Source of the DNA: Streptomyces asoensis
GTDB taxonomy: Bacteria > Actinomycetota > Actinomycetes > Streptomycetales > Streptomycetaceae
NCBI RefSeq assembly: GCF_013085465.1
Contig: NZ_CP049838.1
Span: forward strand, 2,480,001-2,544,000
DNA length: 64,000 nucleotides
Reading direction: 5' to 3'
Positions 32,137 through 34,276 of this stretch are shown here, piece after piece. The notes below the pieces were generated by a model. The model was not told where the DNA came from. It did no database searches and saw nothing but the letters and a program-made list of their open reading frames with translations. The translations under genes were made by a program, and so were the position numbers. The stretch's first letter is position 1, and every line of letters begins with the position of its first letter.

Positions 32137-33239
32137 CGCTGGCCGTGCAGCGGGTTCCGGAGGAGCTGTCGGCGCGGGTGCCGGCCGAGCAGCGCGGGCC
32201 GGGGCGGGACCGGGACGACGTACGGCTGCTGGTGTCGCGGGGGACGGAGGCGTCGCATCACGCGTTCCGGGAGCTGCCGTGTCTGCTGCGGGCCGGGGAC
32301 CTGCTCGTGGTGAACACCTCGCCGACGCTGGCGGCGGCCGTGGACGGGCGGGTCGGGCACGCACGCGTGGTGGTGCACTTCTCCACGCGCGGTGACGACG
32401 GACGGTGGGCCGTGGAGCTGCGGGACCCGGACGGGAAGGGCACCACCCGCGCGCGTGCGGGCGGGCCCGCGGGGATCGAGGTGCGGCTGGCCGGGGGTGT
32501 GCGGCTGGCGCTGGAGGAGCCGCTGAGCCCGGGGAGCGGGCGGCTGTGGTGGGCGCGGGTGTCCCCTGCCGGGGCGGTGCCCGGGCTGCTGCGGGAGTAC
32601 GGGCGGCCCATCCGTTACTCCTACACGGAGCGGGATCAGCCGCTGTCCGTCTACCAGACGGTGTTCGCGCTGCCCTCGGCCGACGGGTCGGGCAGTGCGG
32701 AGATGCCGAGTGCGGCGCGGCCCTTCACCGCGGGGCTGGTGGCGGAGCTGGTGAGCCGGGGGGTGCAGTTCGCGCCGATCACCCTGCACACCGGGGTCGC
32801 CTCGGCGGAGGTGCACGAGCCGCCGTACCCGGAGCGGTTCGCGGTGCCCGAGGAGTCGGCGCGGCTGATCAACGCCGTGCGGAGTGGTGGGGGGAGACGG
32901 GCCGGCGGGCGGGTGATCGCGGTGGGGACGACCGCCGTGCGGGCCGTGGAGTCGGCGGCCGGGGCGGACGGGGTCGTACGCGCGCGGGCGGGATGGACGG
33001 ATCTCGTGGTCACCCCCGCGCGCGGGGTGCGGGTGGTGGACGGGCTGCTGACCGGGCTGCACGAGCCGGAGGCCTCGCATCTGCTGATGCTGGAGGCGGT
33101 GGCGGGGCGGGCCGCGATCAGCCGTGGCTACGACGAGGCGCTGGGCGGGCGCTATCTGTGGCACGAGTTCGGGGACGTGCACCTCGTCCTTCCGGAGGAG
33201 AACACTGACACAGAGCATTGCTCGGGCAACTATCAGTGA
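32133..33239 (+). CDS. diverged QueA-family (SAM:tRNA ribosyltransferase-isomerase-like) protein
   Basis: The 368-residue protein keeps the QueA layout: an N-terminal FRELPCLLRAGDLLVVNTSP block, YSYTERDQPLSVYQTVFALP, AVGTTAVRAVES, and the C-terminal VVDGLLTGLHEPEASHLLML with YLWHEFGDVHLVLP. Several QueA landmarks are altered: the NDTRV motif reads NTSPT, ExYQTVYA reads SVYQTVFA, and LHVGxGTFxPV has become LHTGVASAEV. QueA makes epoxyqueuosine on tRNA. No tgt or other queuosine gene is nearby and the upstream partner is an SDR, so a changed reaction is plausible. Confidence 0.8.
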   Translation: MTLAVQRVPEELSARVPAEQRGPGRDRDDVRLLVSRGTEASHHAFRELPCLLRAGDLLVVNTSPTLAAAVDGRVGHARVVVHFSTRGDDGRWAVELRDPDGKGTTRARAGGPAGIEVRLAGGVRLALEEPLSPGSGRLWWARVSPAGAVPGLLREYGRPIRYSYTERDQPLSVYQTVFALPSADGSGSAEMPSAARPFTAGLVAELVSRGVQFAPITLHTGVASAEVHEPPYPERFAVPEESARLINAVRSGGGRRAGGRVIAVGTTAVRAVESAAGADGVVRARAGWTDLVVTPARGVRVVDGLLTGLHEPEASHLLMLEAVAGRAAISRGYDEALGGRYLWHEFGDVHLVLPEENTDTEHCSGNYQ

Positions 33240-33431
33240 GAACAGGGTGGGGCCCGTGTGAGCCCGCACATAGGGCGCGGATCACGTACTACGGGCAATA
33301 GGAGATAAAGGGGACGCGGTGAACGGGGCAGATGGTTCCATCTGTCCCGATTTGCCCTTCCCTGATCCACTATCGGGGATCGTACGTCACACCTTTGCCT
33401 GCCCTTTTTGCGGCCGCTAACAATGGCTCTC

Positions 33432-33512
33432 GTCGCTCAGCGCCGTGGGTTCTCCCCCGGCGGCGCCCGTGCCAAAAGCACCCGCTGTCCGCCGTCGGAC
33501 GAAGAGAGCGAC
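33432..33512 (+). ncRNA. predicted multibranched structured leader of the SLT gene
   Basis: A closing stem GTCGCTC (33432-33438) with GAGCGAC (33506-33512) encloses three hairpins: 33440-33466 (GCGCCG/CGGCGC with an inner GGG/CCC), 33469-33481 (GTGC/GCAC, CAAAA loop) and 33487-33500 (GTCCG/CGGAC). A promoter-like TTTGCC (33394) - 18 bp - TAACAA (33418) would start transcription close to the closing stem. Streptomyces cell-wall hydrolase genes are often under ydaO/c-di-AMP riboswitches. I do not see the usual ydaO conserved strings here, so class membership is open. Confidence 0.45.
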
Positions 33513-33541
33513 CTCCGCGCTATTCGAAGAGGTCCATCCGC

Positions 33542-34276
33542 ATGCCCAAGAACACTCGCAAGATCGCGATCGCCGGTGCCGCCACGCTCGGTGCCGCTGC
33601 CCTCGCCTTCTCCGTGGTGCCGGCCGACGCGCAGACGACCACTACGGACGCCGTCTCCTCGGCCCGGGTCGCCTACAGCTCAGCGCCGGCGCAGGTCGTC
33701 AAGGCCAGCGTGACCGACCAACTGGCCGCGACGAGCGTGAAGGTCGACGCCATCGAGGCCAAGAAGAAGGCCGCCGCGGCGGCCGCCGCCAAGAAGAAGG
33801 CCGCCGCCGAGGCGGCCGCGAAGGCGGCGGCAGCGAAGAAGAAGGCGGCCGCAGCGGCCGCCGCCAAGAAGGCCGCCGCCGCGCGCAAGGCCAACGAGGC
33901 CGCGAGCCGGTCCGCCAAGCGTGTCGCGGTCAAGAAGGTCGCCACCAAGAGCTACGCCAACAACCTCGACGGCTGGATCAAGCAGTCCCTGGACATCATG
34001 AAGTCCAAGGGCATCCCGGGCTCCTACAGCGGTCTGCACCGCAACATCATCCGGGAGTCCTCGGGCAACCCGAAGGCGATCAACAACTGGGACATCAACG
34101 CCATCAACGGCATCCCGTCCAAGGGTCTGCTCCAGGTGATCCCGCCGACCTTCGCCGCGTACCACGTCGCCGGGACGTCCTGGAACATCTACGACCCGGT
34201 CGCCAACATCACCGCCGCCGCGAACTACGCGGCCGACAAGTACGGCACGATCGACAACGTCGACAGCGCGTACTGA
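33542..34276 (+). CDS. secreted lytic transglycosylase (SLT domain) with Ala/Lys-rich linker
   Basis: The 244-residue precursor has a signal peptide (likely cleavage ADA/QT at 30/31). A low-complexity Ala/Lys segment follows (residues about 72-118, blocks of KKKAAAAAAAKKK). The C-terminal SLT domain has catalytic Glu172 in RNIIRESSGNPKAINNWDIN and the GLLQVIPPTFAAYH motif. SLT enzymes cleave peptidoglycan glycan strands to 1,6-anhydro products. The basic linker may bind anionic wall polymers. GAAGAGG precedes the ATG by about 10 nt. Expression may depend on the structured leader. Confidence 0.92.
   Translation: MPKNTRKIAIAGAATLGAAALAFSVVPADAQTTTTDAVSSARVAYSSAPAQVVKASVTDQLAATSVKVDAIEAKKKAAAAAAAKKKAAAEAAAKAAAAKKKAAAAAAAKKAAAARKANEAASRSAKRVAVKKVATKSYANNLDGWIKQSLDIMKSKGIPGSYSGLHRNIIRESSGNPKAINNWDINAINGIPSKGLLQVIPPTFAAYHVAGTSWNIYDPVANITAAANYAADKYGTIDNVDSAY

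Follow-up and report, generated by a model that had tools for sequence, protein, structure and literature searches.

Whether the mRNA of a putative cell-wall-cutting enzyme of Streptomyces asoensis begins with a structured leader, and of what kind such a leader could be, is the question raised by the DNA just upstream of a gene at 33542-34276 (+ strand) of the 64,000-nucleotide stretch analyzed here (the window), which belongs to a genome consisting of one contig of 10.04 Mb. The gene encodes a secreted protein of 244 amino acids that matches PF01464 (E 1.4e-08) and whose homologues carry the name "transglycosylase SLT domain-containing protein"; no solved structure matches it by sequence at E≤0.01. 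This SLT gene is flanked by a queA-like gene (PF02547) and, on its other side, by a gene of the reverse strand that encodes FHA and ABC-transporter domains. A preliminary description of the locus proposed, for positions 33394-33541, a four-way-junction leader preceding a cell-wall lytic transglycosylase, and both the PF01464 match and the conservation of the fold presented below bear out that a structured leader precedes such a gene. The strings on which that proposal was built are all in place, namely those of the closing stem (GTCGCTC, 33432-33438; GAGCGAC, 33506-33512), of an alternative pairing (GCTCTC, 33426-33431; GAGAGC, 33504-33509), and of the promoter (TTTGCC, 33394-33399; TAACAA, 33418-33423).

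The SLT search gave matches in 150 genomes of the genus, from which 109 upstream regions were used (a close set of 30 and 79 more), one locus represented by a 10-base placeholder (L139) and 41 further genus genomes being left out. The 30 close leaders were aligned by sequence and evaluated for four helices, all on the + strand: the closing stem P1, whose 5' arm GTCGCTC would lie at the 5' end of the RNA, and the hairpins P2 (33439-33467, arms 33439-33449 and 33455-33467), P3 (33469-33481, GTGC at 33469-33472 with GCAC at 33478-33481), and P4 (33487-33500, GTCC at 33487-33490 with GGAC at 33497-33500). Considered together, 96.0% of the 770 cells are paired, versus 33-49% when the columns are slid by 1-3, and double changes occur in 7 of the 26 pairs, with none of 500 shuffles reaching the observed paired percentage, the double-change count, or the covariation score. 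Four of these seven double-changed pairs are among the 11 of P2, where 96.7% of cells are paired. P3 is the weakest helix, with 87.5% of cells paired and two of its four pairs double-changed, yet one pair broken in 11 of the 30 orthologues, while P4 has 96.4% paired cells and no double change. P1 is nearly invariant in this set, with one double change. Thus, the conservation and the compensatory changes that the preliminary description had advised looking for in orthologue leaders are both present. A pseudoknot between AGCGC in P2 and GCGCT in the loop of the P5 hairpin described below was also considered, and was rejected upon finding it broken, by eye, in L005, L022, and L025.

When the leaders were built into a model (R1), it located a single site in the host genome and one in each of 69 of the 150 genus genomes, all 69 being located just upstream of the SLT gene when coordinates are compared by eye. 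Regarding predicted stability, the interval 33394-33541 as a whole is unremarkable (z -0.71, 46 of 200 shuffles folding equally well) and includes some 38 nt that precede the likely transcription start; the segment from the putative +1 to the Shine-Dalgarno (SD) sequence reaches a z of -1.73 in the window and a mean of -1.59 over the 109 leaders, 5 of which lie above zero. The minimum free energy structure of the longer interval does use the GCTCTC/GAGAGC pairing that had been put forward as a switch. Nonetheless, this proposal is not supported by the comparison, both strings being found in only 11 of the 109 orthologues and the 5' arm lying upstream of the likely +1.

Among the 109 orthologues the 5' UTR, as counted from the putative start to the start codon, spans 44-110 nt (median 104), and the interior enclosed by P1 varies between 3 and 68 nt with differing sequences. 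The four-way junction is consequently retained as the local form in the close clade of the window and not as the general one, because the interior is quite different elsewhere in Streptomyces, down to the 3-nt loop of L094, a leader that amounts to one hairpin of 7 pairs. On the contrary, the arms of P1 recur: GTCGC is present in 92 of the 109 leaders, 84 of them with GCGAC near the SD sequence and 8 with a G-U variant, whereas GCGAC is found in none of the 17 leaders without GTCGC. Compensated pairs include CGTTGC/GCAACG (L061), ATCGC/GCGAT (L081), GTCGCC/GGCGAC (L012), and GTCGCA/TGCGAC (for example L099 and L140), with GTCGCGG/CCGCGGC as a further alternative. The distance from P1 to AGG is 14-17 nt in 92 of the 109 leaders, as determined by a search confined to 8-21 nt.

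In an alignment of the arms that ignores pairing, all five core pairs of P1 are kept in 82 of 98 distinct rows; among the failing ones, 14 belong to a GTCC group that folds in another way and 2 are shifted in the alignment. Pairing reaches 86.6% in this alignment, while shuffles average 80.4 (none of 1000 attaining the observed value) and slid versions give 38-52; double changes occur in 3 of 7 P1 pairs, a number reached by 16 of 1000 shuffles. Since the leader sequences are related, all such shuffle-based counts are inflated and are not probabilities. Sliding by -2 and -3 columns gave 35 and 31 double-change cells, respectively, versus 18 in the true register. A stem score of at least 13 is reached by 96 of the 109 leaders, against a mean of 21.7 with the 3' region shuffled, although the stem search favours compensation because the best stem is picked. 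When each leader is compared with its own shuffles, 69 of the 109 beat 95% of them and 40 do not, and in an arm-swap control with free register the 3' regions of other species often scored equally well. The predicted probability of P1 averages 0.50, with values of at least 0.5 in 59 of 109 leaders; for compensated leaders it is low in L081 (0.07) and L012 (0.28) and high in L061, L094, and L099 (0.97, 0.95, and 0.93, respectively).

The GTCC group, a type of its own with fifteen of the 109 leaders (GTCCCCGACGGAG...GTC, GTCCTC...GAGGAC; L062-L064, L067, L069, L070, L072, L075, L077, L079, L084, L087-L089, and L095), has no GUCGC/GCGAC stem; in most of these leaders folding does not predict the GTCC/GGAC pairing either, and gives separate hairpins. 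This group indicates that P1 can be replaced. Another hairpin is set in these leaders at about the distance of P1 from the SD sequence.

The SD sequence of the window, GAGGT (33529-33533, +), is the complement of ACCTC in the 3' end of its own 16S rRNA, which is read within the window as GGATCACCTCCTTTCT. The anti-SD segment ACCTCC adjoins P1 in the leader, and the P5 hairpin (33510-33534, +), formed by GACCTC (33510-33515) and GAGGTC (33529-33534) and present as a string in 55 of the 109 orthologues, hides the SD sequence. P5 and P1 share the GAC at 33510-33512; of the seven P1 pairs, just three are incompatible with P5. In the clade of the window, defined by the GTCGCTC 5' arm (n=65), the predicted probability of an unpaired SD sequence is 0.138, versus 0.304 in shuffled leaders, while for the 44 leaders outside this clade there is no clear difference (0.297 versus 0.317). 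Thus, an SD-hiding hairpin exclusive with another conserved helix is found in the clade of the window only, and there P5, overlooked in the preliminary description, is a better switch candidate than GCTCTC/GAGAGC. Ensembles forced to the full P1 or to P5 were compared in the 54 of the 65 GTCGCTC leaders that contain both exact helices: they are predicted to lie at most 2 kcal/mol apart in 44 of the 54, with a mean of +1.2 in which an outlier of +19.8 was kept, and the values for the window are -46.0 for full P1 and -46.6 for P5. These near-equal energies are compatible with a two-state leader and not proof of one, because both stems are similar in size. The 15-nt block containing the SD sequence has no other exact copy in the host genome, and further copies were rejected, with 19 matches at up to 2 mismatches (one exact) being fewer than the 26 control matches.

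The DNA upstream of the leader is itself strongly conserved. A putative promoter at 33395-33424 (+), with a -35-like TTGCCT and a -10-like TAACAA/AACAAT, follows the pattern TTTGCC-n6-TTTTGCnGCCGCTAASAAT and is conserved in the orthologues; an element immediately preceding it, TCCACTA(n7)TCGTACGTCACACC (33366-33393, +), belongs to the same conserved block of 60 nt. This block, nTCCACTAnccgGgnTCGTACGTCACACCTTTGCCacggnaTTTTGCgGCCGCTAAGAAT, ends at the -10 region and is at least 86% identical at 43 of its 60 positions in the 109 orthologues, the -10 string formed by its last letters being the anchor of the alignment. The RNA probably starts at the base of P1, as placed from the -10-like motif, and in most of the 92 leaders with a GTCGC 5' arm the distance from the AAT of the -10 region to the P1 stem is 7 nt. 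Scans of 33200-33600 with a generic sigma-70 model and with a simple terminator search of the + strand found no promoter and no terminator, respectively. Both promoter patterns have one site each in the host genome at up to 3 mismatches, so further copies of the promoter there were rejected, and among 197 genomes of the order the 43-nt pattern is found in 153, each of them one of the 181 genus members; none of the 16 non-genus genomes has it, and only one of these represents a second genus of the same family. The MtrA consensus GTAACCnnnnnGTAACC (PMC12323332), the CutR motif TAWATAAA (PMC12802291), and the sigma-E promoters (PMC6767563) were considered and rejected, none of them being seen by eye in the promoter.

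A second, distal conserved block (TGTGAGCCCGCACATAGG...TCACGTAC...TAGGAGA, 33257-33305, without assigned strand) lies upstream of the promoter, with the consensus TGTGAGCCCGCACATAGG..TCACnTACGAAnnnnnnTAGKRGA across orthologues and a TCACnTA core in all 109 upstream regions. In many orthologues its part GTSACGTACGAA-n6-TAGTGG resembles, by eye, an inverted copy of the promoter-upstream element at 33366-33390. A possible small open reading frame (33218-33301, 27 codons, MLGQLSVRTGWGPCEPAHRARITYYGQ), which overlaps the terminal part of the queA-like gene, was considered as an account of the block and dropped, because by eye some orthologues have lost the frame and, at other loci, the block precedes genes in its absence. 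Between block and promoter, an inverted repeat (CGGGGCAGATGG/CCATCTGTCCCG, 33324-33353) followed by TTT is kept with changed letters in close orthologues and may either terminate transcription of the queA-like gene or act as an operator.

Four genomes contain additional copies of the 43-nt promoter pattern (six in G274, two in G195, two in G190, and one in G217), and six of these eleven were fetched. All six have GTCGC/GCGAC arms, one as GTCGCC/GGCGAC and the others as GTCGCA/TGCGAC; five enter a readable gene whose protein matches PF01464 in every case, and the sixth stops at a contig end. The five are extra SLT paralogues at separate loci (L278, L279, and L283 in G274, L280 in G195, and L282 in G217). 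By eye, the distal block precedes all six copies, while the sequence farther upstream differs. Thus, in the copies seen, the gene family remains associated with its promoter, distal block, and leader.

5' leaders of wall-hydrolase genes in this genus readily suggest the c-di-AMP riboswitch, since ydaO-like riboswitches are described on seven hydrolase genes of S. coelicolor and six of S. venezuelae in a review (PMC10117811). The preliminary description had found the conserved ydaO strings lacking, and this is confirmed by the RF00379 search, which gave no match at the locus with either gathering or E≤5 thresholds and located six sites elsewhere in the host genome. Membership of the ydaO/c-di-AMP class was therefore rejected, and the SLT gene falls outside the set of riboswitch-controlled hydrolases. 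In addition, the Rfam 15 scan of the window at gathering score returned rRNAs only, and an Rfam search at E≤1 covering 12 orthologue loci gave no match inside their leaders.

If the leader were a new type of metabolite riboswitch, with P2-P4 as ligand pocket and P1/P5 as expression platform, this would account for the four-way junction with its double changes in the close clade and for an SD hairpin close in energy to the closing stem that it opposes, and the gene would join other Streptomyces wall hydrolases under riboswitches (PMC10117811, PMC8079986). However, a ligand core is expected to be the most conserved part of such an RNA and the P1 interior is here the most variable one, which argues against it; no conserved aptamer core appears among the 109 orthologues, neither the junction nor the hairpins keep their sequences throughout the genus, L094 has just a 3-nt loop inside P1, and Rfam gives no match, all of which makes this reading improbable. 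The least probable of the explanations is an SD-hiding leader governed in trans, by a protein or small RNA recognizing the conserved segment ATTCGAAGAGGT. Most leaders keep this segment, which precedes the start codon, nearly constant though the rest changes, but its conservation may simply reflect use as the ribosome site; no candidate partner emerged, and the 15-nt block has no second exact copy in the host genome.

A more serious contender, though still an unlikely one, is control mainly at the DNA level, in which promoter and distal block are operators, the leader is passive, and its structure incidental. The promoter block and the distal core vary less than the leader does, the six fetched copies elsewhere are likewise preceded by the distal block, and the strong conservation of the promoter means that the main control may be transcriptional. 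On the contrary, covarying pairs in P1 and P2 and a P1 interior of such variable length suit an RNA helix better than an operator. The reading preferred here, for which confidence is about evenly balanced, is that of a conserved structured mRNA leader that acts on mRNA stability or translation initiation and is not a riboswitch. Considering that (i) the interior of P1 is variable, (ii) the 5'-terminal helix is fairly constant, and (iii) this helix is kept at a near-fixed distance from the SD sequence, the leader does not resemble an aptamer and would fit a structure that protects the mRNA 5' end and governs the access of ribosomes; no ligand is invoked. It is rather doubtful that the leader amounts to an undescribed genus-wide latch, in which the first nucleotides of the RNA compete with an SD-hiding hairpin to give bistable control of a secreted SLT family, beside and without the c-di-AMP riboswitch.

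Under the preferred reading, that of a structured leader acting on stability or initiation, the mRNA of a secreted peptidoglycan-cutting enzyme would have this leader as its 5' UTR and would be transcribed from a gene-specific and nearly invariant promoter. P1, the most constant feature of the leader, would pair the first nucleotides of the RNA with a segment ending about 14-17 nt upstream of AGG, and would in this way close the 5' end of the mRNA beside the landing site of the ribosome, where it may both shield the message from 5'-end-dependent decay and set the access of the 30S subunit. In the clade of the window, the anti-SD ACCTCC is predicted to fold onto the SD sequence as P5, in competition with three P1 pairs, and the leader could then take either of two states, one with the SD sequence closed and one with it more open. 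Cell-wall-cutting enzymes need restraint, and such a leader might damp or time the synthesis of a potentially lytic one.

The ompA mRNA is an example of a bacterial message with a stabilizing 5'-terminal stem-loop, and by analogy the SLT leader would resemble such messages in having a helix that starts from the likely first nucleotides of the RNA and lies shortly upstream of the SD sequence; unlike in them, its P1 encloses a long and variable stretch in most species, and in one clade it overlaps an SD-hiding hairpin. SD-hiding translational switches and RNA thermometers are likewise known kinds of leader, with which the SLT leader shares the pairing of the SD sequence by GACCTC/GAGGTC in competition with another stem; it differs from them in that SD hiding is above chance only in the clade of the window and has no known trigger. 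With RF00379 (ydaO/yuaA) leaders, for example that of rpfA, it shares being a structured 5' UTR of a secreted Streptomyces wall hydrolase, as described in PMC10117811 and PMC8079986, whereas it has neither a match to that model nor a conserved ligand core, nor a + strand terminator in the scanned 33200-33600. No description of the SLT leader came up in the openly accessible literature that was searched.

The c-di-AMP riboswitch is a known RNA control of wall-cutting genes in Streptomyces, and the leader presented here would be a second and separate post-transcriptional layer. With a fairly constant P1 around an interior that varies freely, it is also a natural experiment in the functional requirements of a 5'-end stem.
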